From the NCBI GenBank assembly GCA_017543265.1, contig JAFYGI010000060.1, forward strand, positions 1-64,000: 64,000 nt of DNA, read 5' to 3'. Below, one piece after another: positions 32,405 to 63,765 of the stretch. Every line of letters begins with the position of its first letter. Position 1 is the first letter of the stretch. This DNA comes from Bacillota bacterium (GTDB lineage Bacteria > Bacillota > Clostridia > Lachnospirales > CAG-274). The notes beneath the pieces were generated by a model. That model was given only the letters and a program-made list of their open reading frames with translations. It ran no database searches and had not been told where the DNA came from. The position numbers were made by a program, and so were the translations under genes.

Positions 32405-32950
32405 TTATTGAAGTATCGCTATCACGTCCAGCATATCTATACTGCTGTCAACGTGGATATCCGCCGCCGCAAGCTGCTGCGGTGTAAGGTATGCCGTACC
32501 GCTCAGATACGAGAGCAAAAGCCTGGCATCAAGCTCGTCTACGACCTTATCGCCGTTTATATCGCCTGCCGAGAATACCCTTACACCGTAGAATGCGATT
32601 ATCCTCTCCGCGGGGGTATCTATATCGGCACCGCCCACGCGCACAATATACGTCTTTGCCGTATTCGTCCATGACGCGGGCGCAAAGGAAAAGCTGAATT
32701 TATTATCGGTCACGGCAGCGTTGAACTGGTCGATATATATCATATCCTTTGAATATGTCGCATCGTTATATTCACAGGCAAGCACGGTTATATTTTCGCC
32801 TGCCGATGCTTCGCTCAATGTGCATTCCACCTTGACCGTGCCGTTTGTATCCTGCTCGGCCTTTGTGACGGAGACCTCTGCGGCAGATACCGCCGTGCAA
32901 AGCGACAGAAGGGCCGCAGCACTCAAAAGGCCGCAAATTATTTTTCTCAT
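32405..32950 (-). CDS. Small secreted dockerin protein
   Basis: 181 residues: a signal peptide (1-23, ending AVSA), a ~90-residue β-rich domain of unknown type (EVSVTKAEQDTNGTVKVECTLSEA ...), then a type I dockerin. The first Ca loop is canonical (GDINGDKVVDELDARLLLSYLSG). The second (ADIHVDSSIDMLDVIAIL) lacks the usual Gly, and the protein ends immediately after it. No catalytic domain is evident, so it may be a binding or structural module recruited to a cohesin scaffold. It has its own promoter and is divergent from the 2202-residue secreted protein; a joint role is possible but unproven. Confidence 0.85.
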   Translation of the reverse strand: MRKIICGLLSAAALLSLCTAVSAAEVSVTKAEQDTNGTVKVECTLSEASAGENITVLACEYNDATYSKDMIYIDQFNAAVTDNKFSFSFAPASWTNTAKTYIVRVGGADIDTPAERIIAFYGVRVFSAGDINGDKVVDELDARLLLSYLSGTAYLTPQQLAAADIHVDSSIDMLDVIAILQ

Positions 32951-32991
32951 ATCGGCTCACCTCATTTCAGATCAAATCCGGTTATGCTATG

Positions 32992-33020
32992 ATTATAACA
33001 GATACGGCCTGTGATTTCAA
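32992..33020 (-). promoter_or_regulatory. Promoter of small dockerin gene
   Basis: Minus strand TTGAAA, 17 bases, TATAAT, about 40 bases before the start. Confidence 0.8.
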
Positions 33021-33092
33021 GCATAAATTACAAAAAATGTCGTAAAAATTACACGGTTTTATACATCTTTACGAAAAAACTTATCCAAATAC

Positions 33093-33121
33093 TTGAAATT
33101 TAATGTGCAATATGATAAAAT
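33093..33121 (+). promoter_or_regulatory. Promoter of 2202-residue secreted protein gene
   Basis: TTGAAA, 17 bases, TAAAAT, 80 bases before the start. Confidence 0.7.
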
Positions 33122-33201
33122 GAAGCTATATTATATAGTGTCGATAAAATCACACAAAGTATACATGAGCGTTAATATAATATGAAAGGAAGGGTGAATA
33201 T

Positions 33202-49303: not shown

Positions 49304-52300
49304 ATGAAAAAAGACAGATTACCAAAGAGAAGTCTTAAAAGAACGGTTCTTTCTATGGTCATGGCAGTTGCTATGGTTTTTGGAAACATCGGCTTTGACA
49401 CTCGTGTTGTAAATGTTAAGACAGTTGAAGCTGCGGTACCCACCAAACAGGATGCTGCAAGTGCGGTAAACTACAGTACAATATTGGGTCGTGCTGTGGA
49501 ATACGGCATTTTGGTCGAAAACTTCAATAAGTTCAGTCATTTTGAGTCTACTATAGCTACATACAGCTATAAGGGTAATGACAATGATGACATTGACCTT
49601 ACTGCAACCGGTACGGCGCAGGTAATGATAGGTCAATTTGTTGACGATGAAGAAAACGGAGTTTATTCGGAGCTTAGCTTTGACGACCGCAGTTCGACAC
49701 ATTACACAAAGTATATCAATGTTGAAGCACCCAAGGAGGTTCTTGACAGAGTTACACGCAGAAGCGAAAATATGGCTGAGCTTGTAAAAAAAGAGACCGA
49801 TATAAGTGCAATAAGAAACAACATTACAAGAATGCTCAATAATGTTTCCGAAAAATCGGAAATGTTATCGCAAAAGGCGAACAGCAGCGAGTATGCTGCG
49901 GATCTTTCGGAGATCGGCAAGCTTGACGGAAAGTACTATCTTGATCTGACAGATCCCGTATATGACGGAAAGGTCGTTTACGTCAATGCAGACGAAAATG
50001 ATCCCGAGGGTCAGAAGCTTCTTTCCAAGATAAGTGAAACAGAGGGCTTATATATAAAGAAGAAGTCCGATACGGTGGTCGTTATCAATATAGATTCCGC
50101 ACAGCCGAGAACACTTCAAAAGTACATTGTTGAGACGGAAAACGGTGTTGAAAACACTTATACCGACCACAGCGGCTCACAGACTGCTGCAAATGAATTC
50201 AGAGATAAAGAAATAGCGCAGAAGATAATATGGAATTTACCTAATGCTACCGAGGTAAGACTTAATACAACGGTAGGTACATTCCTTATCCCCAACAAGG
50301 ATGCTGTGATAGAGCTGGAGGGTTCATCCGGCGGCTGGATAGCTTCCGGCGGTACATTTAATCTGCGTCAGGAGTGGCATTACATCTATAAGGGTGTAAG
50401 CGAAAATACAAACTCCGATGAAAAGGGTCAGATACACTTTGCCGCAAGAAAAGCGTTTACTGATAGGTATGACGGCAAAAATACGGCAGAGAACACATCG
50501 GTATCGTTAAAGAAGGGTGATTATACATTCAGCTTTTACGAGACGGGTGCGGATTATCAGACAGACGGCGTAGTGCCGATACAAAACGATGTTGTCAATG
50601 AAGACTCCAGCAAGATAAAATTCCCTATCCTCAGTTTCTTCACAACTGCGGAATCCGCCGAAACCGGTGCAGGTAAATATCTTGTGGAAGACGGCAATAC
50701 AAATACCTACTACTTTGTTATAAAAGAAAACGACGCAGGCAAGGTCAGTGACAAGGGAATAACATATTCCGACGGCGAGATCGATATTGAGCTTAAAGCT
50801 ACCAATAAAGCAGGCGTGCTTTCATACGAGGTAAGTACAAAGACTTATCTTAAATCAGAAAAGAGCGACGAAAATCTGTACAAGGTAAACGATAAGGTCG
50901 ATATGTCCGGTATAGAGTTCTCTCTCGGTGCTTTCTTTAACTTGGTAAAGCCGACGGTTGAGATAAGCAAGGTAGACCAGTTTGGTGCAGAGGTCGTTGG
51001 CGCACAGCTCAGACTTATGTCAAACGACAGATCCGTTACATTTGACAAGAATAATGTATCGGGCGGCAGCAGTTGGATGGTATATGATGAATCGGCTCCC
51101 TACAGCAACTATTGGAACCCGAATTGGTGGGCATCAACGGGCAAGCTGATAGAGTGGAAGTCTATAGAGGGTGCAAATGCCGTTATCAAGGACATACCCG
51201 ACGGTACATATACCCTTACCGAATACTTGACTCCGGATGATTACGAAAAATCAGAGGACGTTACCTTTACGGTACAAAACGGCAAGGTCGTAAGCGTTAA
51301 CGGCGGTAAAGCGGTCAACAACAAAATTATAATGACCGACAAGAATGTCAAGAAAGCCGATATTGAGGTCAGCAAGGTTGACCTTGCGGGCGACGAGGTA
51401 GAGGGCGCACTTGTTTCCATACAGTATAGGTCTACAGACGGTACTAATTGCGATTTTGTTGCCGAGGTCGGCGACAGCGGTGCGCAGATCAAAAATCAGA
51501 GTACCGACTATATCCAGTGGCAGTCCGGCAGCAAGGGTCCCGTTAAGCTTAAAAACCTCCCCGCAGGTACATATACGTTCCGCGAGGATACGGCACCTGC
51601 AGGCTACAGCAAGGTAACGGAATTTACCTTTACCGTAGAAGGCGGCAGGATAAAGGACGTAAACAGCACGGAGGCCAAGAAGGACGGCGACAACAAGCTT
51701 ATCGTTACAGATAAGGACAACGTTGTAATAAGCAAGCAGGCGCTTGGCAATACAGACGGCAGCGAGCTTCCCGGAGCATCTATGTCTCTTAAGGGTATTG
51801 ACGAGTGGAATTATCCGATAAATTACTATGGTTTCTACGGTTATTCCGACCAGTCTATCCCTGTTGACTGCGGAAACGGCGACCTTACATGGAATGCCGA
51901 TGAAAACGCATGGACATGGACATCGGGCAGCAAGCCTCAGGAATTCAGAAATCTTAAGGACGGTACATATACCATCCATGAGGATGTTAACGGTGTCCCC
52001 GCAGGCTATAAGGTATCAAACGATATTACCTTTACCTTAAAGGACGGCAAGGTGACATCCGCAGAATTTAACGGTGCTCCTCTTGATTACAGCAAAAATA
52101 CTGTAATTATGTATGATGAGGCAGGCGAAAACACTACAAAGGATGTTGTTATAAGCAAGGTAGATGTTGGCGGTAAGAATCTTGAAAACGCAAGACTTAC
52201 ACTTATCGTGACAGATGCTGATAACAAAGATGTCAACATAAAGGATGTTATAACAGACCTTAAAAATGCAGACAGTATTGAATGGGGCGACAGCTCCGTA

Positions 52301-55300
52301 TCATGGACATCTACTAAAAAAGCAGCTATTGCTACATTCCCTGCTGTGGGCAAATACAATGCTACGCTTAAAGAGGATGCGGCTCCCGCCGGCTATCAGG
52401 TAGCATCGGATGTAAGCTTTGTACTTGAAGACGGCAAGTTAAAGGATGCAGACGACAAGGATTTAGAAAAGGTCGTGATGAAAGATTACGCCAAGAAGGA
52501 CGTTTCTATCAGCAAGAAGTCTGCTGTTGACCAGTCGGAGCTTAAGGGCGCAGAGCTTACACTTACGGGTGTTGATAAGTTCGGTGATGAAGTTAAATTT
52601 GACTCCGACCAGATAGAGACAGGCGAAGGTGCCGAAAAGCTTTGCGACGGCAAGCAGCTTACATCTCTTAAGTGGTCATCGGGTACAACGGCTACTTTGA
52701 TAAAGGGTCTTTCGGACGGTACCTATACATTGAGCGAGGATAACGCTCCCCGCGGCTACAAGGTTGCGGACAGTGTTACATTTGAGATAGAGAACGGCGA
52801 GATCGTTTCGGGTGATACCGATATGATCGATGAACTCAACAAGACAGATGTAAACCTCAGCAAGAAATCCGCTGCCGACAGCAGCGAGCTGAAGGGTGCT
52901 GTACTTACTCTTACGGGTACCGATTTTGCGGGCAATACCGTATCGTTTACAAAGGACAATGTACAGCTTGGCTCCGAAGCAAAGGAAGGCACCTACGGTG
53001 AAACACTTTCTTGGACATCGGGCAGCAGTTCTACATTGGTTAAGAATCTTCCCGACGGTGAGTATGTACTTCACGAGGATACAGCTCCTCTCGGCTATGT
53101 TAAGAACACCGATGTAAGCTTTAAGATACAAAACGGTAAGCTTGTTAAGGACGTTGGCGTTTCAGTCGATACCAATACCGTAGCCATCGTTGATGATGTT
53201 GCAAAGACAGATGTTACAATAAGCAAGCAGACTGTTTCCAACAGCGGCGAGAATAACGAGCTGAAGGGTGCTGTACTGACACTTACCGGTACAGATTACG
53301 AAGGAAACGGTGTGGTATTCAAAGAAGAAGACATAACGCTTGGCAGAAATGCGCAGCCCGGTTCATACGGCAGTACGCTTTCCTGGACATCCGGCGAAAG
53401 CCCCACACAGGTCAACAATCTTCCCGACGGACATTATGTACTTGTGGAAGATACTGCACCTTTGGGTTATGTTAAGGCTACATCTATAGAGTTCAGCATC
53501 AAAAACGGTGAGGTTTACGATGCAGAAGACAATCCTGTGACTTCAAGCACTATTGTTATGGTAGACGAGGTCGCAAGTACGGATGTTGCGATAAGCAAGA
53601 CATCGGCAGCCGACAGCAGTGAACTTAAGGGTGCAAAGCTTACCCTTACAGGCGTTGATTACAATAAGGATGCTGTAGTATTTGATGAATCCAATTTAGA
53701 GCTTGCAAAGGATGCGGAAAATCCCACATACGGCAGCTCGCTTTCATGGACGTCGGGCAGCAGTGAGACACTTGTCAAGAACCTTCCCGACGGTACATAT
53801 ACACTTACCGAGGATGCGGCTCCCGCAGGTTATAACAAGACGAGTGCAATAACATTCGGCATTAAAAACGGTGTTGTTGTGGATGCAACAGGCAAGGAAA
53901 TATCAGACAAGAAGATCGTTATGGTCGATGAACTTACAAAGACCGATGTAACGATCAGCAAGATATCCGCTGCAACAACAAGCGAGCTCAGCGGTGCTAT
54001 TCTTCAGCTTACAGGTACTGATTTTGCGGACAATAAGGTAGTATTTACCGAAAAGAACATTAAGCTTGGCGAGGGTGCGGGCAATGCATCCTACGGCGAT
54101 GTGCTTCAGTGGACTTCCGGCAATGCACCTACACTTGTTAAGGATATACCTGACGGTACATATACACTTACCGAGCATCAGGCACCCGATAATTACGAGA
54201 TTGCGGAGTCTATAACATTTGTTGTTAAAAACGGCAAGGTATATGATGTAGACGGCAGCGAGATCACAGACAAGAAGATAGTTATGGAGGATAAGCTTAA
54301 GGAAACGACAACAGAGTCAACTACCGAAAGCACGACCACAACTGTTACAACAACTACCGAGACCACTACAACATCGGAAACTTCCACAAAGAAGAGCGGC
54401 TCGGACGATGAGTCAAAGACTACAACTCAGACTACATCGGAAACAACTTCGGAGACAACATCCGAGACTACGTCCGAGACAACTTCGGAAGCTACATCGG
54501 AGTCAACATCCGAGGCAACTTCAGAGGAAACATCGGAGGCTACATCGGAAGCAACTTCGGAGGAAACTTCGGAAGCTACTACTGCATCTGAGGCAACAAC
54601 TCAGACCGATACAGAGACTACATCAAAGGAGCCTTCGGGTGAAGATTCAACCGAAGCAACAACAGAGTCTCCCAGCGATGATAATACATCGAGCAGTACA
54701 ACAACTACCGAAACAACTACGGAGTCGACCACCGAAACAACTACGGAGTCTACTACAGAAACGACTACGGAGACCACAACAGAGTCTACTACGGAAACAA
54801 CAACGCAGACAACTGTTGAAACTACTACCGAGTCTACTACAGAAACAACAACAGAAGCTACAACAGAGTCAACAACACAGACCACTACAAAGAGAAGCGG
54901 CGATGATGATGTTGACAGAACAACAACGGAGTCTACTACAGAAGCTACGACCGAAGCCACAACTGTAACAACGACAGAGGCTACTACCGAGGCAACGACT
55001 GTAACAACACAGACAACTACCGAGGCAACGACCGAAGCTACTACAGAGAACACAACGGAGTCTACAACAGAGACTACAACAGAAGCTACTACCGAAACAA
55101 CAACACAGACTACGACCGAGGCTACAACAGAGGCTACAACAGAAACCACTACAGCCACAACAGAGTCTACTACCGTTTCGGAAACAACAACTACGGGCAC
55201 GACAGAGCCTTCATCGGAGGAGCCTTTGGGTGACAACACTACAGAAACACCTACCGAGGAGCATCACGGTGATAATACGTCAAGCAGCACAACGACCACA

Positions 55301-56197
55301 GAGACGACAACGGAAGCCACAACGGAGACTACCACCGAAGCAACCACAGAAACTACGACAGAGTCTACTTCGGAGTCTACAACAGAGGCTACAACAGAGA
55401 CTACCACATCGTCATCGGGCGGTCACGGTGTTGACAAGACAACAGAGGCTACAACAGAAGCGACGACCGAGGCTACAACGGAGGCTACTACAGAAGCAGC
55501 TACAAAGGCCACAACAGAGGCTACTACAGAAGCTACTACACAGGGTACAACAAGCTCGTCCGACAAGACAACGGAAGGCGCTACAGAGTCTACAACAACA
55601 AAAGATCATGCATCGGGTTCGGAGGACGTATCCAAGGATTCCACTACCGAGGCTACAACAGCTTCTTCGGGCGGCGGTTCATCCAGAAGAGACAGAGCAT
55701 CCTCTACAGATGATGAGAGCAGAGGTAAGAGCGGCGGTTCAAGTTCTCTTAACAGAGGATCGGGCAGCGACAGCGATACCAACAACGGTAGCGAGAACGA
55801 TGTAACGGATAATGTTACGGATGTTACAGACGAAAACACAAATACCGATAACAATAACGATGTTATTACTTCGGACAACACAAGCAGTGATTTCGTTGAC
55901 ACCGAGACCAGCGGCAGCAGCAATACAAGCGGCGGCAGCACAACAAACACAGTAGTTGATACACAGGAAGAGGTTGACAACAGCGCGTATGCTAATGCAG
56001 ACGGCAGCGGTTTCAGAAACAACAACATGACTACTGCAAACGCAAGTGCAAACAGCGGTAATCCCAATGCACCTGCAGCAGCACAGTCCAAGCTTCCTCA
56101 GACAGGCAGCCCTGTAGATACACAGACCATCTTTGGTTTTGGTGCATTACTTATGGCAGCCGGTGTATATCTGCTTAAGAAAAAGGCTGTAAGATAA
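49304..56197 (+). CDS. Giant LPQTG-anchored surface protein: choice-of-anchor-like head, nine SpaA-like repeats, Thr/Glu stalk
   Basis: 2297 residues, cell-wall anchored. A signal peptide is followed by a head domain (~45-380) whose end (WNLPNATEVRL ... GTFLIPNKDAVIE ... RQEWHYIYKG) resembles choice-of-anchor A adhesins. Nine SpaA/CnaB-like repeats (~549-1665) follow, each with (D)VxISK near the start and LPDGTYTLTEDxAPxGY near the end. These commonly form stabilising Lys-Asn isopeptide bonds. A stalk of ~465 residues rich in Thr, Glu and Ser (TTTETTTE, TSETTSE, TEATTE units) comes next, then a Gly/Ser/Asp/Asn stretch. The sorting signal is LPQTG (2264-2268), a membrane span and KKKAVR. It is a class A-type signal, so its sortase is probably elsewhere rather than the class B enzyme at 4560. 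GGGGG ribosome site. Codon use is biased like the xylanase gene. Confidence 0.93.
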   Translation: MKKDRLPKRSLKRTVLSMVMAVAMVFGNIGFDTRVVNVKTVEAAVPTKQDAASAVNYSTILGRAVEYGILVENFNKFSHFESTIATYSYKGNDNDDIDLTATGTAQVMIGQFVDDEENGVYSELSFDDRSSTHYTKYINVEAPKEVLDRVTRRSENMAELVKKETDISAIRNNITRMLNNVSEKSEMLSQKANSSEYAADLSEIGKLDGKYYLDLTDPVYDGKVVYVNADENDPEGQKLLSKISETEGLYIKKKSDTVVVINIDSAQPRTLQKYIVETENGVENTYTDHSGSQTAANEFRDKEIAQKIIWNLPNATEVRLNTTVGTFLIPNKDAVIELEGSSGGWIASGGTFNLRQEWHYIYKGVSENTNSDEKGQIHFAARKAFTDRYDGKNTAENTSVSLKKGDYTFSFYETGADYQTDGVVPIQNDVVNEDSSKIKFPILSFFTTAESAETGAGKYLVEDGNTNTYYFVIKENDAGKVSDKGITYSDGEIDIELKATNKAGVLSYEVSTKTYLKSEKSDENLYKVNDKVDMSGIEFSLGAFFNLVKPTVEISKVDQFGAEVVGAQLRLMSNDRSVTFDKNNVSGGSSWMVYDESAPYSNYWNPNWWASTGKLIEWKSIEGANAVIKDIPDGTYTLTEYLTPDDYEKSEDVTFTVQNGKVVSVNGGKAVNNKIIMTDKNVKKADIEVSKVDLAGDEVEGALVSIQYRSTDGTNCDFVAEVGDSGAQIKNQSTDYIQWQSGSKGPVKLKNLPAGTYTFREDTAPAGYSKVTEFTFTVEGGRIKDVNSTEAKKDGDNKLIVTDKDNVVISKQALGNTDGSELPGASMSLKGIDEWNYPINYYGFYGYSDQSIPVDCGNGDLTWNADENAWTWTSGSKPQEFRNLKDGTYTIHEDVNGVPAGYKVSNDITFTLKDGKVTSAEFNGAPLDYSKNTVIMYDEAGENTTKDVVISKVDVGGKNLENARLTLIVTDADNKDVNIKDVITDLKNADSIEWGDSSVSWTSTKKAAIATFPAVGKYNATLKEDAAPAGYQVASDVSFVLEDGKLKDADDKDLEKVVMKDYAKKDVSISKKSAVDQSELKGAELTLTGVDKFGDEVKFDSDQIETGEGAEKLCDGKQLTSLKWSSGTTATLIKGLSDGTYTLSEDNAPRGYKVADSVTFEIENGEIVSGDTDMIDELNKTDVNLSKKSAADSSELKGAVLTLTGTDFAGNTVSFTKDNVQLGSEAKEGTYGETLSWTSGSSSTLVKNLPDGEYVLHEDTAPLGYVKNTDVSFKIQNGKLVKDVGVSVDTNTVAIVDDVAKTDVTISKQTVSNSGENNELKGAVLTLTGTDYEGNGVVFKEEDITLGRNAQPGSYGSTLSWTSGESPTQVNNLPDGHYVLVEDTAPLGYVKATSIEFSIKNGEVYDAEDNPVTSSTIVMVDEVASTDVAISKTSAADSSELKGAKLTLTGVDYNKDAVVFDESNLELAKDAENPTYGSSLSWTSGSSETLVKNLPDGTYTLTEDAAPAGYNKTSAITFGIKNGVVVDATGKEISDKKIVMVDELTKTDVTISKISAATTSELSGAILQLTGTDFADNKVVFTEKNIKLGEGAGNASYGDVLQWTSGNAPTLVKDIPDGTYTLTEHQAPDNYEIAESITFVVKNGKVYDVDGSEITDKKIVMEDKLKETTTESTTESTTTTVTTTTETTTTSETSTKKSGSDDESKTTTQTTSETTSETTSETTSETTSEATSESTSEATSEETSEATSEATSEETSEATTASEATTQTDTETTSKEPSGEDSTEATTESPSDDNTSSSTTTTETTTESTTETTTESTTETTTETTTESTTETTTQTTVETTTESTTETTTEATTESTTQTTTKRSGDDDVDRTTTESTTEATTEATTVTTTEATTEATTVTTQTTTEATTEATTENTTESTTETTTEATTETTTQTTTEATTEATTETTTATTESTTVSETTTTGTTEPSSEEPLGDNTTETPTEEHHGDNTSSSTTTTETTTEATTETTTEATTETTTESTSESTTEATTETTTSSSGGHGVDKTTEATTEATTEATTEATTEAATKATTEATTEATTQGTTSSSDKTTEGATESTTTKDHASGSEDVSKDSTTEATTASSGGGSSRRDRASSTDDESRGKSGGSSSLNRGSGSDSDTNNGSENDVTDNVTDVTDENTNTDNNNDVITSDNTSSDFVDTETSGSSNTSGGSTTNTVVDTQEEVDNSAYANADGSGFRNNNMTTANASANSGNPNAPAAAQSKLPQTGSPVDTQTIFGFGALLMAAGVYLLKKKAVR
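54301..55690 (+). repeat. Low-complexity Thr/Ser/Glu coding repeats
   Basis: About 1.4 kb of degenerate ACA/ACT/GAG/GAA codon repeats encoding the stalk. It is interrupted three times by similar short islands (KKSGSDDES, KRSGDDDVD, SSGGHGVD), suggesting growth by duplication of larger blocks. Confidence 0.88.
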
Positions 56198-56751: not shown

Positions 56752-56801
56752 TTATTATAATTATAATAACTGTTGACAAAAAGCGAAAAATGTCATAAAA
56801 T
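56752..56801 (+). promoter_or_regulatory. Promoter and dyads of the BlaI-like regulator operon
   Basis: TTGACA, 17 bases, TAAAAT (56773-56801). A perfect AT-only palindrome, TTATTATAATTATAATAA (56752-56769), abuts the -35 box. A second dyad, TGACA-N12-TGTCA (56774-56795), spans the core promoter. Either could be an autoregulatory operator. Confidence 0.7.
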
Positions 56802-56853
56802 AAAACTATGGGTTAGGGAGTTTGAACTTGGCTTAAGAATGGAGGAAAGCATA

Positions 56854-57252
56854 ATGACAAAAGTTACACTTACCGAGAAAGAATACGAAGTAATGGAGAT
56901 ATTGTGGAAGAGCGAGAAGCCTATGCTTGCAAGCGAAGTAACAAAAAAAGTAAGCCGCGCATCGGGTAACTCGACACATCATTTGCTTAACCGTCTTATG
57001 GAAAAGGGCGTTGTAAAGGTTGCCGGCAATGTGAAGATAGTTAAGGCACAGAGCAGATTATATGCCCCGGCATATACTACGGCGGAATATATCGCAATAC
57101 AGGCCGGAGAGATATTTAAGGCCACAACGGGCAAGTTTGATGTTAAAGATATGCTTGCCTGCCTTGTAAAAAAGAATAAGAACAAAAACGATGAGATCAT
57201 CAATGAAATAAAGGCATTTATAGACGAATACGAGAAAGGTATAGAGCAATAA
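56854..57252 (+). CDS. BlaI/MecI-family winged-helix regulator
   Basis: 132 residues. Start 56854 (MTKVTLTEKEYEVMEILWKS) follows GGAGGAAAG; the upstream extension has no site. The N-terminal winged helix matches BlaI/MecI/CopY (LTEKEYEVMEILW ... ASEVTKKVS ... STHHLLNRLMEKGVV), followed by a helical dimerisation tail. In known systems these repress an operon and are inactivated by a BlaR1-type sensor protease. Here the adjacent gene is a membrane protein without zinc-protease motifs, so the signal is different or elsewhere. The stop and next start overlap (TAATG). Confidence 0.85.
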   Translation: MTKVTLTEKEYEVMEILWKSEKPMLASEVTKKVSRASGNSTHHLLNRLMEKGVVKVAGNVKIVKAQSRLYAPAYTTAEYIAIQAGEIFKATTGKFDVKDMLACLVKKNKNKNDEIINEIKAFIDEYEKGIEQ

Positions 57253-58295
57253 TGTTCACTAATGAAAACATTATAAGATGCCGCAAAAAAATCAAAGCCA
57301 GGCTTGGTATAGGTATACTAAGCCTGTTTGTTATGCTTGCGGTACTGGGTGTGGTCGCATTTGAGGCTAAAAATAAAATGGCGGCCGAAAAGTCGATGGA
57401 AGAGGTGTATCAGGCGCTGTACGAAGCAGACAGGTACGATCCCGTACAGGTGGCGTATATAGATACACAGGAGGAGGTAGTATCCTTTGCGGGCACTGAT
57501 GACGAAAAAGAGCTTTACGATGTTGTTATGGACAAGGATGGCTTTTTATATGTACTAAAGTTGAGCGGCAAGCAGGAAAAGGCGATAAACGACAGCGTGG
57601 CGCAAACAGGCAGCGCACATATAAGGGGCGTTACATCGGAATTCAGAAACAGCGATGCAAGAAGGTTTTTGCTGGAGCAGATGCAGGAGGGTTATCCCGA
57701 GGAGAATATAACAGAGGAAAATCTGGACGACATTACGGGATATTTGCAGCTTAATGTCAAAAACATAAATATTTTAAGTGTTATGGGCAGCGCGAACGGC
57801 TGGTATGCACTTGCTTTAATAGTTGCCTTTATTGTGGCGGTTTTTCTGATACCGACAAGTATTTTTATGCTTGGCAAGGAAAAGAAGCTTGGCATGGATG
57901 AGGTAAAAATGCTGGATGAGGAGATGTCGGCAGGTGCGTCATGGATGCCTACGCTTGAGGCCTATGCAACGGAAAATTATGTTATAGGCGCCGGCAGCGG
58001 TGTGGTGCCGTGCAGATACAGCGATATACTGATGATATACAAGGAAGTACACCGCTATAACGGCATAAAGACCAGCGAGAATATAAAGGTGCTTGATAAA
58101 AGAGGCAATGTTATAGATATTGCAAACATATCCGTAAATTCCTTCCAGAGGATAAAGAGCGATGATATAAACAGCGAGCTGGAATATCTGGGCAACCGTA
58201 TCAGGGAGGCAAACGAAAATGTATATCTCGGATACAATCAACAGGTCTTGCGGGATCTGCAAAAACGTGCCAAAAATGGCGAATTTATGCAGTAG
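57252..58295 (+). CDS. Membrane protein of unknown function, coupled to BlaI-like gene
   Basis: 347 residues with two membrane spans (~19-38 and ~178-203) enclosing a ~140-residue loop that probably faces outside. The C-terminal ~140 residues are cytoplasmic and contain YVIGAGSGVVPCRYSDILMIYKEVHRYNG, which looks like a β-rich PH-like segment. No HExxH or penicillin-binding motif is present, so it is not BlaR1. The one-base-overlap start and shared promoter with the regulator suggest it is the regulator's partner, perhaps a sensor or a regulated membrane protein. Not recognised further. Confidence 0.72.
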   Translation: MFTNENIIRCRKKIKARLGIGILSLFVMLAVLGVVAFEAKNKMAAEKSMEEVYQALYEADRYDPVQVAYIDTQEEVVSFAGTDDEKELYDVVMDKDGFLYVLKLSGKQEKAINDSVAQTGSAHIRGVTSEFRNSDARRFLLEQMQEGYPEENITEENLDDITGYLQLNVKNINILSVMGSANGWYALALIVAFIVAVFLIPTSIFMLGKEKKLGMDEVKMLDEEMSAGASWMPTLEAYATENYVIGAGSGVVPCRYSDILMIYKEVHRYNGIKTSENIKVLDKRGNVIDIANISVNSFQRIKSDDINSELEYLGNRIREANENVYLGYNQQVLRDLQKRAKNGEFMQ

Positions 58296-58320
58296 ACAGA
58301 GGTTTTCTTCATTAATAAAA

Positions 58321-58520
58321 CATATAAAATCTGAAAAAATCTGTACAATTCTGTGAAAATCTGAAAAAATCTGTGAAAATCTGAAGAAAACATATAAAAT
58401 CTGTAAAAATCTGAAAAAAACCTTAAGAAAACGTAATTTTTCATTGACAATTCATTAATAAAACGTTGAAAAACGTTAAAAAACGTTGAAAAACGTTGAA
58501 AAACATATTGAAAACGTTGC
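58321..58520. repeat. 10-bp-phased A-tract arrays upstream of terminase genes
   Basis: From 58331 to 58420 CTG-starting units such as CTGAAAAAAT and CTGTGAAAAT recur every 10 bases, with CATATAAAAT at 58321 and 58391. From 58461 AAACGTTGAA recurs at an exact 10-base period four times (one copy AAACGTTAAA), plus another AAACGTTG at 58512. Phased A-tracts make curved DNA. Confidence 0.88.
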
Positions 58521-58536
58521 CCAACCGTGTTATAAT
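58508..58536 (+). promoter_or_regulatory. Promoter at the end of the A-tract array
   Basis: TTGAAA, 17 bases, TATAAT. The last AACGTT repeat lies in the spacer. Confidence 0.72.
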
Positions 58537-58689: not shown

Positions 58690-59109
58690 ATGGCATTGAC
58701 GCCAAAACGCAAAAGGTTCTGTGAAGAATATGTTAAGGACAAGGATGCCCATGCGGCTGCCGTAAGGGCGGGGTATGCGGAAAAAACGGCAAAAAATGCC
58801 GAAAAAAGCATATTGAACAATGTTGAGGTAAGGACATATCTTGCGGAACTGATGCAGGATGACAAGACTGCGGGCGCGGACGAGGTGATAGGATATCTTA
58901 GCTCGGTCATGCGCGGAAAGGAGAAAAACGAGGTGCTTGCACGCATAGGCGGCGGAGCGCAGAGCATTGCGGAAATTGATGTTTCGGCAAGGGAAAGGCT
59001 TAAAGCGGCCGAGCTTTTGGGCAAGCGCTACAATCTTTTCAAGGACAGTCTTGAGGTAAACGGTGTAACAAAGATAATATTTTCGGGCGAGGGTGAGTTG
59101 AGTGAATAA
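58690..59109 (+). CDS. Phage terminase small subunit
   Basis: 139 residues of the Terminase_2 type: an N-terminal DNA-binding helical region, LTPKRKRFCEEYVKDKDAHAAAVRAGYAEKTAKNAEKSI, then SARERLKAAELLGKRYNLF and a C-terminal tail. It recognises the phage packaging site and hands DNA to the large subunit. AAGGAAGGTG is the ribosome site. The curved array begins ~370 bases upstream, a plausible binding target. Its end overlaps the terL start by 8 bases. Confidence 0.9.
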   Translation: MALTPKRKRFCEEYVKDKDAHAAAVRAGYAEKTAKNAEKSILNNVEVRTYLAELMQDDKTAGADEVIGYLSSVMRGKEKNEVLARIGGGAQSIAEIDVSARERLKAAELLGKRYNLFKDSLEVNGVTKIIFSGEGELSE

Positions 59110-60337
59110 AATTTATCTGCCCGATGTTGTCGGAAGAGGCTATGCGGACTACTGGAGCTTTACGGGGCGATACCGTGTGTGCAAGGGCAGCCGTGCAAGC
59201 AAAAAAAGCAAAACGACGGCGCTTAACTTTATTTACAGGCTGATGAAATATCCGCAGGCTAATCTGCTGGTGGTTAGAAAGGTTTTTGCCACCCTCAAAG
59301 ACAGCTGCTACACCGAGCTTAAATGGGCTATACACCGCTTTGGCGCCGACAGCCTGTTTGAGTGCAAATTAAGTCCCCTGGAAATAGTGTATAAGCCTAC
59401 GGGACAAAAAATATTCTTCAGGGGTCTGGACGATCCTTTAAAAATAACCTCCATTACGGTATCTACGGGGGCACTTTGCTGGCTGTGGATAGAGGAGGCC
59501 TATGAGATAAACGACGAAAACGACTTTAATATGGTGGACGAGAGCATCAGAGGACAGGTGCCCGACGGACTTTTTAAACAGGTAACGCTGACTTTTAATC
59601 CATGGAATGAAAAGCATTGGATAAAGCGGCGTTTTTTTGATGCAAAGGATCCGGAGGTACTGGCCAAGACTACCAACTATATGATAAACGAGTTTTTGGA
59701 CGAAAGCGATATAAGGGTCTTTGAAGAAATGAAAAAAAACAACCCAAGGCGTTACCGTGTGGCCGGGTTGGGTGAATGGGGCATAGTTGAGGGACTGATA
59801 TACGAGCGCTGGGAGGAACGAAAGTTCAGGGTACGCGATATTGTAAACAGCGATACGCGGGCGGTGTTCGGGCTGGACTTTGGCTATACAAACGACCCGA
59901 CGGCCTTGTTCTGCGGCATAATAGACAAGGCGGCAAAGGAGATATATGTCTTTGACGAGCTGTACGAAAAGGCGCTTAGCACGGAGCAGACCGCGGCAAA
60001 GATCTGCGCGATGGGCTATGCGAAGGAAATAATAACGGCCGACAGTGCGGAGCCAAGAACCATAGACAGGCTGCGTGAACTGGGCATAAGGCGCATAAAG
60101 CCCGCACGCAAAGGACGCGACAGCATAAACTGCGGCATAGATTTTTTGCAGGACTACAAGATAATAATTGACCCGCGCTGTGAGAATTTTATAAGGGAAA
60201 TAGGAAATTACAGCTGGGAAAAGGACAGAACGGGCAGCAGGATAAACAAGCCCGCTGCGGGGTTCGATCATCTTATGGATGCAATGAGATATGCCGTGGA
60301 GGACTGTGCCGGGGGCGATATATTCAGTTTTTATTAG
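59102..60337 (+). CDS. Phage terminase large subunit
   Basis: 411 residues, PBSX/Terminase_3-like packaging motor. The N-terminal ATPase has an unusual Walker A-like CKGSRASKKSKTTA and Walker B LWIEEAYEI. The C-terminal RNase H-like nuclease has FGLDFGYTNDPTA (first Asp), TADSAEPRTI and HLMDAMRYAVED (last Asp). It starts with GTG, overlapping the terS end (GTGAATAAA). It cuts phage DNA and pumps it through the portal. Confidence 0.95.
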   Translation: MNKIYLPDVVGRGYADYWSFTGRYRVCKGSRASKKSKTTALNFIYRLMKYPQANLLVVRKVFATLKDSCYTELKWAIHRFGADSLFECKLSPLEIVYKPTGQKIFFRGLDDPLKITSITVSTGALCWLWIEEAYEINDENDFNMVDESIRGQVPDGLFKQVTLTFNPWNEKHWIKRRFFDAKDPEVLAKTTNYMINEFLDESDIRVFEEMKKNNPRRYRVAGLGEWGIVEGLIYERWEERKFRVRDIVNSDTRAVFGLDFGYTNDPTALFCGIIDKAAKEIYVFDELYEKALSTEQTAAKICAMGYAKEIITADSAEPRTIDRLRELGIRRIKPARKGRDSINCGIDFLQDYKIIIDPRCENFIREIGNYSWEKDRTGSRINKPAAGFDHLMDAMRYAVEDCAGGDIFSFY

Positions 60338-60352: not shown

Positions 60353-61750
60353 ATGAACTATGCAAATGAAATGTATTGGCTTAAAAGGCTGGAGTACGGC
60401 AGACCGATGACATATACCGAGTATATCGGGCGGCAGATAAGGGAGTTTAAATGCTCGCAGACGTTAAAGGAAATGCTGGACGGTGAAAAATACTTTGCGG
60501 GTGCGCACGACATACTTAAAAGACGGCGCACCGTTATAGGCGGGGACGGAGAGCCCGTGCCCGTTGATAATCTGCCAAACAACAGGGTGGTGGACAACAG
60601 ATACAAGCGGCTTGTCACGCAGAAAAACAATTATCTGCTGGGCAGGCCGCTTGCCGTTTACAGCGAAAACAGAGAGTACGACAAGCTGCTTAACGAAATT
60701 TTCAACAAGGATTTTCAAAGGCTTATGCGTAATATAGGCGAGGATGCACTTAACTGCGGCCTTGGCTGGATGCACGTTTATATCGGGCAAGACGGAAAGC
60801 TTTGCTTCAGACGTTTTAAGCCTTACGAGATCATACCTGCATGGGCCGATGCCGAGCATACTGTTTTGGATCATGCGATAAGAATTTACGAGATAGTTTG
60901 CTACGAGGGCCGAAAAAGCAGGATAGAGGAAAAAATAGAGCTGTATGACAAAAACGGCGTTACCTACTACAAAATGAGCGGCGGCAGGCTCGTGCCCGAT
61001 GAGGACAGGCAGCCGCATTGCTATATGTCGTGCGGCGGCATGGATTACAACTGGCAGAGGATACCGCTTATTGCGTTTAAGTATAACGCAAAGGAGATAC
61101 CTCTTATAAAGAATGTAAAAACGCTGCAGGACGGCCTGAATATACTTATGAGTAATTTTCAAAACGGTATGGAGGAGGATGTGCGCAATACCATACTTGT
61201 ACTTAAAAATTACGACGGTGAAAATCTGGGTGAGTTCAGGCAAAACCTTGCGGCCTACGGTGCTGTCAAGGTGCGCACGGTGGACGGTGCCGAGGGTGCG
61301 GTGGAAACGCTGCGCATAGACGTAAACAGCGAAAACTACAAGCAGATAATAGAGCTGTTTAAAAGGGCGATAACCGAAAACGGCATGGGCTTTGATGCAA
61401 GCGAACTGCGAAACGGCGGAACGCCTAATCAAATGAACATACAAAGCGTATACAGCGACATAGACCTGGATGCAAACGGTATGGAAACGGAGTTTCAGGC
61501 TGCGTTTGAAAAGCTTTTGTGGTTTGTGGACACATATCTTTACAATACGGGCAAAGGCAGGTTTGACTGCGGTGCCGAGATAGTCTTTAACCGTGATATG
61601 CTTGTGGACGAAAGCAGCGTTATAGAAAACTGCGTTAAGTCAAACGGACTTATAAGCACCGAAACGGTGGTCAAAAATCATCCGTGGGTCAATGATGTAT
61701 GCGGTGAGATGAAAAGAATTACTCAGGAAAACAAAGGAAAGGAAGAGTGA
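60353..61750 (+). CDS. Phage portal protein, SPP1 gp6-like
   Basis: 465 residues. The N-terminal HDILKRRRTVIGGDGEPVPVDNLPNNRVVDNRYKRLVTQKNNYLLGRPL is characteristic of SPP1 gp6-type portals, as is NILMSNFQNGMEEDVRNTILVLKNY in the centre. It forms the dodecameric ring at one capsid vertex. A GGGGGGAG ribosome site lies 5 bases before the ATG. It is followed by a scaffold gene with no minor head (SPP1 gp7/Mu F-like) gene between. Confidence 0.93.
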   Translation: MNYANEMYWLKRLEYGRPMTYTEYIGRQIREFKCSQTLKEMLDGEKYFAGAHDILKRRRTVIGGDGEPVPVDNLPNNRVVDNRYKRLVTQKNNYLLGRPLAVYSENREYDKLLNEIFNKDFQRLMRNIGEDALNCGLGWMHVYIGQDGKLCFRRFKPYEIIPAWADAEHTVLDHAIRIYEIVCYEGRKSRIEEKIELYDKNGVTYYKMSGGRLVPDEDRQPHCYMSCGGMDYNWQRIPLIAFKYNAKEIPLIKNVKTLQDGLNILMSNFQNGMEEDVRNTILVLKNYDGENLGEFRQNLAAYGAVKVRTVDGAEGAVETLRIDVNSENYKQIIELFKRAITENGMGFDASELRNGGTPNQMNIQSVYSDIDLDANGMETEFQAAFEKLLWFVDTYLYNTGKGRFDCGAEIVFNRDMLVDESSVIENCVKSNGLISTETVVKNHPWVNDVCGEMKRITQENKGKEE

Positions 61751-61753
61751 TCT

Positions 61754-62152
61754 ATGAAAGAAAAACTTAAAGGGCTGGGTCTTAACGAACAGCAGACAAA
61801 GGCATTGGAAAAAATATTTCAGGAGCATGAGGCGCAGATAAAGGCGCTTAAGCTTGAAAATGCCGTAAATACCGCGCTTATATGTGCGGGAGCAAAAAAC
61901 AAAAAGGCTGTCAGGGCAATGCTTGAGCTGGACAACGCCGAGCTTGACGAAAACGGCATTGTAAAAGGTCTTGACGAACAGATAAAGGCGCTTAAAAAAA
62001 GCGACGGATATATGTTTGAGGAAAGGACAAAGTTTACGGGCGTTGTGCCCGGCGAAAGCAGGGACGGCCTTCCCGGCGGCAAAAACGTAAAGGATATGAC
62101 CTATACGGAGCTTGCCGCTTATCTTGAAAACAACCCTAATGCAGAAATTTAA
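61754..62152 (+). CDS. Phage capsid scaffold protein, GP20-like
   Basis: 132 residues, mainly a charged coiled coil (LNEQQTKALEKIFQEHEAQIKALKLENAV), then ALICAGAKNKKAVRAMLELDNAELDENGIVKGLDEQIKALKKSDGYMF, typical of Phage_GP20-type scaffolds located just before the capsid gene. It guides capsid assembly and leaves the mature head. It starts 3 bases after the portal stop. The short length is normal for small gut phages. Confidence 0.83.
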   Translation: MKEKLKGLGLNEQQTKALEKIFQEHEAQIKALKLENAVNTALICAGAKNKKAVRAMLELDNAELDENGIVKGLDEQIKALKKSDGYMFEERTKFTGVVPGESRDGLPGGKNVKDMTYTELAAYLENNPNAEI

Positions 62153-62170
62153 AAAAGGAGATGTAAAACT

Positions 62171-63379
62171 ATGACAAAATTTAATTCAAAAAGCTTTAAT
62201 CCGCAGGCGTTTGGTGCTTATGTGGAGAGAATACCCAATGTAACAAGAAGTGAGCTTGCACGCTCGGGCGCTGTGGGCGCAAACGAAAACGCAAGGGTCG
62301 CGCTGTCGGGACAGACGGGCTCGGTATATGCAAGGGTACCGTATTTTGGCAGGATCTCCGCGGCTACTTCGCAGAACAATGACGGCAGCAGCGATATAAG
62401 CGCGACCACGACCACTACCTTTGAGCAGGGTTTTGTGGTGGCATCGCGTATGGACAGCTGGACGGAAAGAAGCTTCAGCAAAAACATAACCGCAGGTGCC
62501 GATTTTATGGACAGCGTTGCCGCGCAGATAGCCGATTACAAGGCAGAGGTGAAGCAGGGCATACTGCTTAAAATGCTTAAGGGCATTTTCTCCATGAATA
62601 CGGTAGGCAACACGCTTGAAGCAAAGTCGGCTAAGGCCTTTGTTGAAAACCATACATACGATGTGACGGGCACACAGACTGGTCTTGTGGAGGCAACAAC
62701 GCTTAATTCCGCAATACAGCAGGCCTGCGGCGACAATATGGACGCATTCAAACTGGTGCTTATGCACTCGGTCGTTGCGACAAACCTTGAAAACCTTAAT
62801 CTTATGCGTTTTCTCCAGTACACCGATAATGACGGTATCACAAGAGACCTTAATATAGGCACATGGAACGGCAGAGTCGTACTTATTGACGACGGTATGC
62901 CCGTGGAAAATGTGGAGGCCGAGTATGCGCTGACAAGCGATGAGTCCATTGACAGCAGCAAGACCTATTACACAAGAAGCGGCAGCGGTACTGCGGAAAG
63001 TCCTTATGTATATACGGCGGTTGCCTCACCCGATGTGACCGATATTGCCACATATTACGAAATGACTGCCGCGGCTTACAAGGCATATACGACCTATGTG
63101 CTTGGCGAGGGTGCTGTCATACTTGACAACATCGGTGATTTTGTGCCCTATGAAATGAGCAGAAATCCTGCCAAAAACGGCGGCGAGGACACGCTTTTTG
63201 TACGCGACAGATATATCTGCGGTGTTGAAGGCATCAGCTTTGAAAAGCCTGTTTCGCTTACAGTTTCCGCGGCCAACAGCGACCTTGCGGACGGCGGCAA
63301 CTGGTGCGTGATAAACGACGGTGTTGATGCGATAGAGGACAAGTCCATTGCCATTGCAAGAATAATCTCGAAGGGCTGA
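62171..63379 (+). CDS. Phage major capsid protein (HK97-fold) with Ig-like insertion
   Basis: 402 residues. Position after scaffold and before connectors, and segments such as DNMDAFKLVLMHSVVATNLENLNLMRFLQYTD, support the major head subunit. Residues ~247-300 (ALTSDESIDSSKTYYTRSG ... YTAVASPDVTDIATYYEMT) look like a small β insertion between capsid halves, similar in pattern to modules I recall from other phage virion proteins. The AAAAAAGGAG ribosome site is strong. Its stop overlaps the next start (TGATG). Confidence 0.87.
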   Translation: MTKFNSKSFNPQAFGAYVERIPNVTRSELARSGAVGANENARVALSGQTGSVYARVPYFGRISAATSQNNDGSSDISATTTTTFEQGFVVASRMDSWTERSFSKNITAGADFMDSVAAQIADYKAEVKQGILLKMLKGIFSMNTVGNTLEAKSAKAFVENHTYDVTGTQTGLVEATTLNSAIQQACGDNMDAFKLVLMHSVVATNLENLNLMRFLQYTDNDGITRDLNIGTWNGRVVLIDDGMPVENVEAEYALTSDESIDSSKTYYTRSGSGTAESPYVYTAVASPDVTDIATYYEMTAAAYKAYTTYVLGEGAVILDNIGDFVPYEMSRNPAKNGGEDTLFVRDRYICGVEGISFEKPVSLTVSAANSDLADGGNWCVINDGVDAIEDKSIAIARIISKG

Positions 63380-63765
63380 TGCTTATGAGTACGCAAGAGG
63401 TAAAGGCGAGGCTTGAACAGCTTGGCTACGAGGTGACACAAAGCGACGAGGACGCAATAGAATATGCGGCGGACAGTATACAGGAGCGGATAAGGAACCT
63501 TTGCAATCAAAGCGAAGTACCGGACGAGCTTTACTACAAGTCGATAGATATGGCCTGCGGCGCCTTTTTATCGGGCAAAATGCTGCTTGGCGGCCTTGAC
63601 GAATACGACGAGTCAAACGGCAGGCTTATAAAGACGATATCGGAGGGCGACACCACTGTCACCTATGCCGAAAAAAAGAGCTGCGCAAAGCGTGTGGAGG
63701 AGCTTGTTAATTCGCTTAGCGTATCGGACGGCGAGATAATCTGCTGGCGCAGGCTTAAATGGTAA
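63379..63765 (+). CDS. Phage head-tail connector protein
   Basis: 128 residues, helical, with TQEVKARLEQLGYEVTQSDEDAIEYAADSIQERIRNLCN and a central MACGAFLSGKML. This fits gp6/gp15-type adaptor proteins that bind the portal, as expected directly after the capsid gene. The start could also be the ATG two codons later. Its identity rests mainly on position and general pattern. Confidence 0.7.
   Translation: MLMSTQEVKARLEQLGYEVTQSDEDAIEYAADSIQERIRNLCNQSEVPDELYYKSIDMACGAFLSGKMLLGGLDEYDESNGRLIKTISEGDTTVTYAEKKSCAKRVEELVNSLSVSDGEIICWRRLKW

Follow-up and report, generated by a model that had tools for sequence, protein, structure and literature searches.

The A-tract array at positions 58320-58520 is probably an upstream region that activates the late promoter of a particle operon derived from a phage. 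The window (the whole analyzed stretch of DNA, 64,000 nucleotides) contains this promoter and the start of the operon, beginning with the gene for the terminase small subunit (terS). From comparison with other phage sequences, the array is most likely an overgrown form of the repeats, spaced at one helical turn, that are seen at ordinary phage late promoters. The genome to which the window belongs is designated G000, and the genomes compared with it carry similar handles.

Phased A-tracts and the promoter upstream of terS

The features of the region are as follows:

56773-57252, forward strand: BlaI/MecI-type repressor gene (Penicillinase_R); it accompanies the cluster in G000, G004, and G001
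57252-58295, forward strand: gene for a 347-aa predicted membrane protein lacking any Pfam match; it accompanies the cluster in G000 and G004
58320-58421, forward strand: array block 1, about 9 units of TCTG plus A-tract (ACATATAAAATCTG, AAAATCTGAAAA) with a period of about 10 bp, defined from the sequence and TRF
58461-58520, forward strand: array block 2, about 5 copies of AAAACGTTGA units with a period of 10 bp, reaching into the -35 element, defined with TRF
58508-58536, forward strand: promoter TTGAAA-N17-TATAAT with TG before the -10 element; TATAAT lies at 58531-58536, and conservation continues up to 58548 as TATAATGGTATTGTGAAA
58556-58583, forward strand: intrinsic-terminator hairpin AAGGGACAGAAG-ATAA-CTTCTGTCCCTT followed by TTGTT, in the leader between the promoter and terS
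58690-59109, forward strand: terS (Terminase_2, phrog_51)
59102-60337, forward strand: terL
60353-63765, forward strand: SPP1-like portal, scaffold, major head protein, and head-tail adaptor genes, the start of the particle operon

An earlier sequence-only reading had described an array of A-tracts phased at 10 bp and predicted to bend strongly, which ends in a promoter and lies 170-370 bases upstream of terS. All of this was confirmed. TRF recognized period 10 at 58326-58419 (9.4 copies, 71% matches) and at 58460-58504 (4.5 copies, 94% matches), and the region 58320-58520 shows the strongest A-tract periodicity of about 10.25 bp in the 64-kb window. The AAA periodicity (10-10.5 bp) of 58321-58520 was 5.25, the maximum of the window and above that of all 1000 dinucleotide shuffles, and the top positions all overlap or adjoin the array. 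With a Bolshoy-type wedge model, the predicted bend of the array was about 197 degrees per 200 bp against 67 ± 34 for shuffled sequences, and none of 1000 shuffles reached the value of the array. By this predicted curvature the array ranks second in the window, behind positions of about 32939-33138. That strongest predicted bend is located directly upstream of an open reading frame for a 2202-aa secreted protein (33202). The search of the array region for structured RNA with Rfam returned a single sub-threshold match on the opposite strand.

The promoter matches the consensus at 11 of 12 positions, and the distances to terS given by the sequence-only reading are correct. That reading did not contain the terminator hairpin, which has 12 pairs. 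The order of promoter and then terminator in the leader is possibly a conserved promoter-attenuator layout of phage late leaders, one for which there is no Rfam family.

The particle gene cluster and its neighbors

The particle operon extends to contig position ~77702 and includes genes for contractile sheath, tube, baseplate, holin, and amidase; a proA-like host gene of the aldehyde dehydrogenase family comes after it. No integrase, lysogeny, or replication genes were found in the particle cluster by inspection of open reading frames and family scans, in which a few proteins had no match. Between G000 and G004, the particle genes show dN/dS of 0.03-0.16 at a synonymous divergence of 1-2, values which indicate purifying selection. 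The cluster would fit a long-kept, PBSX-like domesticated element.

Further upstream of the BlaI-family gene are genes for a SpaA-domain surface protein, a DEAD-box helicase, and a deaminase-HAD fusion. The SpaA-domain surface protein (49304-56197, 2297 aa) adjoins the element and has long Thr/Ser/Glu repeat tracts and an LPQTG-like C-terminus. In G001, which belongs to the same genus, the left flank is the same as in G000 (deaminase-HAD, helicase, SpaA protein, and BlaI), while the cluster has decayed and contains a recombinase-bearing insert. In G004, the BlaI-family gene, the membrane-protein gene, and the whole cluster are found together, and the further flanks differ from those of G000. 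The array was considered as an element boundary or att site; this was rejected, since in G004 the cluster is likewise joined by the two genes on the upstream side of the array, those for the BlaI-family and membrane proteins. The host boundary offered by the sequence-only reading as one alternative is unlikely for the same reason.

Orthologous terS promoters and the packaging reading

Two orthologous terS loci have readable upstream DNA, those of G004 and G001; the contig of G002 ends too close to terS. In G004, whose terS protein is 83% identical, the promoter and the hairpin are as in G000 and the A-tract units differ (ACACATAAAATCTGCAAAA). In G001, the promoter and the hairpin are present, the array is absent, and the predicted bend is no better than that of shuffles. 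The leader hairpin is retained in both genomes with altered bases. Of the two readable orthologous loci, one thus has the array and the other lacks it. No array was seen at the more distant terS loci examined.

The terS promoter of G001 instead has a 38-bp element (G001:C1:67135-67172) in common with the promoter of a DnaD-type gene in G002 (G002:C180:60-97), and this element has no other occurrence in six genomes. Like the extra copies of the array described below, it would link a particle operon with a replication-type gene by a shared control sequence, although here the two belong to different species rather than to a single genome.

The sequence-only reading favored a pac site, at which the small terminase wraps or selects bent DNA, the large terminase cuts nearby, and headful packaging starts. 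The cluster does have an SPP1-like terS and portal, the array is located 170-370 bp from terS, and in one model the TerS of SPP1-type phages selects DNA with an intrinsic bend (PMC4737164), in keeping with such a site. This reading draws on position and curvature. Against it, the array is missing at the orthologous terS of G001, three extra copies stand without a terminase and are each fused to a promoter at a fixed register, as described below, and a function in late transcription accounts for the same features. A pac site is thus very unlikely.

Other copies of the module and their register

The array together with its promoter, designated here as the module, was found at three more loci of G000 that have no terminase and that do not appear in the sequence-only reading:

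C24, 52.6 kb: before a DnaD-like helicase-loader gene, which is itself cut by the contig end (L003:1984-2176)
C7, 63.8 kb: upstream of a RepA-like AAA_25 gene that has a frame break near the Walker A motif
C32, 25.9 kb: only a terminator behind the promoter, and no gene behind the terminator

Two of the three extra modules precede replication genes of phage or plasmid type. Block 2 is present in C32 as well, and related blocks are present in C24 and C7. The predicted bends of all five modules (four of G000 and one of G004) are 176-208 degrees, and 0 of 1000 shuffles reached the value in each case. A survey of 392 genomes of the order turned up the strict module in G000 and G004 alone. A search for further arrays with ACATATAAAATCTGT gave mostly chance-level matches outside the known modules.

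Several details of these loci were recorded. The frameshift of the RepA-like gene in C7 lies near Walker A (L004:1719-2267, L012:10541-11413), and relatives of this gene are intact in G001, G003, and G005, where their neighbors are relaxase-like genes or an HTH gene. In C32 (L002:1070-1380), TTTGCCCTT / GAACTGCCC units are repeated between the orphan promoter-terminator and a nadE-like gene.

The A-tract centers in the five modules are at about -30, -40, -50, -60, -70, (-80), -91, and -101 from the first base of TATAAT. Relative to the start site inferred from TATAAT, they are at about -42, -52, -62, and -72 in all five modules alike; since the modules share descent, their common register does not represent independent observations. 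The spacer bases between the A-tracts change among modules (TCTG, CGTTG, CGATG, CATAY). When the 60 bp before the -35 element were summed in phase over the five modules, the A-tract columns had 1.2-1.65 bits and most spacer columns 0.3-0.7 bits. It is the phase to the promoter that is conserved, not the sequence.

These observations bear on two other explanations. The units could be operators recognized specifically by a single DNA-binding protein, such as the product of the BlaI-family gene upstream, with their richness in A incidental and the curvature a by-product. A BlaI-family gene does stand beside the promoter in G000, G004, and G001, at the place where phages have their late activator, and the 38-bp element of the G001 terS and G002 DnaD-type genes is what a shared binding site would be expected to look like. 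However, the spacers vary even inside one genome, so that no clear conserved motif beyond AAAAC is seen, and no BlaI-type palindrome was recognized in the array by eye. This explanation is unlikely. Alternatively, the array could be a functionless, neutral relic, in which slippage-prone A-rich repeats have grown beside the promoters of defective prophages. The units are tandem, the RepA frame of C7 is broken, C32 has no gene behind its terminator, and the cluster copy of G001 is decayed, all of which would agree with neutrality. The promoter phase, however, has been kept between G000 and G004 despite the change of units and a synonymous divergence of 1-2, and the particle genes are under purifying selection (dN/dS 0.03-0.16). 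A neutral relic is highly improbable.

A class of phage late promoters with one-turn repeats

The promoter core TATAATGGTAKTGTGAAA followed by a terminator precedes terS/HNH genes in many Firmicutes phages, both in viral contigs and in genomes of the family. For the 23 non-redundant promoters, which were chosen by the promoter core, a terminator is present behind the promoter in 18 leaders, whereas shuffles gave a mean of 0.68 and a maximum of 3. Leaders with a terminator between the late promoter and the first gene include L094-L097, L049, L051, L056, L057, and L169. Ten of the 23 promoters have a direct repeat, 6 bp or longer, at offset 10, against a mean of 0.8 and a maximum of 6 in 400 runs of shuffling, with the qualification that the pattern was spotted in the same data before being tested. 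Offsets other than 10 showed no enrichment of direct repeats in these promoters. The offset-10 repeats are mostly found some 28 and 18 bp upstream of TATAAT.

The late promoter of phage phi13 depends for its activity on direct repeats located between -107 and -42 (PMC13123087). In nine of the ten phages tested here, the gene just upstream belongs to PHROG 36/248, described as a transcriptional regulator/activator with a sigma-region-4-like HTH. The corresponding position in G000, directly upstream of the promoter, is occupied by the BlaI-family and membrane-protein genes instead, and no regulator of DUF1492, the one Ltr family searched for, was found in G000. The BlaI-family gene, being next to the promoter, is a candidate for the regulator.

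The array itself has no nucleotide match in known phages, the TTGAAAAC form of the promoter was not found in viral contigs, and the terS relatives in viral contigs are distant. In one viral contig (L167:1757-1949), the late promoter is present in three tandem copies, 87 bp apart, before the HNH/terS region. In G014, a genome of another genus, four GGAACAAAAA units at 10 bp precede the same type of promoter (C213, L063:1445-1505). These four units look like a short, independent phased A-tract array.

Proposed function and its meaning

A transcription enhancer had been named by the sequence-only reading as an alternative. That alternative is supported by the array's ending at a promoter, by the fixed register of the A-tracts in five modules, and by the one-turn direct repeats that the same promoter class carries at the corresponding spot in other phages. 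As an upstream activating region, the array would raise late transcription by exposing curved and A-rich minor grooves along a single helix face. These could be contacted by the C-terminal domains of the RNA polymerase alpha subunits, by a DNA-binding activator or architectural protein, or by both, and the array would then take over from the repeats to which activators usually bind. Transcription would be restrained, until read-through, by the terminator that follows the promoter. The same control may operate at two or three unlinked loci of G000. The orthologous promoter of G001, which does without the array, counts against an activating function.

The curved-DNA module might also unite the particle operon with the unlinked genes of the DnaD-like helicase loader and the RepA-like ATPase in one dispersed regulon resembling that of a gene transfer agent (GTA). 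Such a regulon is doubtful, and its strict form is weakened by the RepA genes of other species, which lie in a mobilizable-element context and lack this promoter.

With late-gene control as the preferred function, the guess of a packaging site gives way to a testable statement. The class of late promoters defined by one-turn direct repeats, TATAATGGTAKTGTGAAA, a terminator, and terS/HNH can serve for locating late operons, along with their activators, in gut phages that lack annotation. In the putatively domesticated element, a long, intrinsically curved array seems to have taken the place of activator-bound repeats. If the unlinked copies are truly co-regulated, they would suggest a GTA-like system in a little-known genus of gut Bacillota.

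Comparison with known systems

PBSX-like defective prophages and GTAs resemble the cluster in having particle and lysis genes, a contractile tail, purifying selection, and no integrase or lysogeny genes. As for their fixed chromosomal place, the flank in G001 is the same but the cluster is decayed, and the flanks in G004 are different. The cluster also differs from them in that replication-type genes at two other places share its promoter.

The pac sites of SPP1 and SF6 are similar in that bent, repeat-bearing DNA adjoins terS in a cluster with an SPP1 portal. They are dissimilar in that the array has three further copies without terS, is missing at one orthologous terS, and is tied to a promoter.

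Late promoters of the Ltr/RinA/Alt type are known from Gram-positive phages, for example P23 of phi13, the terS promoter of phi11, and TP901-1. Like them, the promoter analyzed here lies immediately before terS and the operon of structural genes, has a SigA-like -10 element, and is preceded by tandem direct repeats. Where they have about four repeats, however, it has about 200 bp of A-tract units at 10-bp spacing. It also departs from them in its near-consensus -35 element, its extra unlinked copies, and a BlaI-family gene in the place of a DUF1492/Ltr gene.

Firmicutes also have UP elements and promoters with phased A-tracts, such as plc of Clostridium perfringens and Alu156 of phage SPO1, in which the A-tracts abut the -35 element and are centered near -42 and -52. 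The array likewise has A-tracts near these two positions, in phase with its promoter, but at about 18 turns it is far longer, and it is common to several unlinked phage-derived loci. In the Q/tR' system of phage lambda, a terminator lies behind the late promoter, a layout like that of the leader described here.
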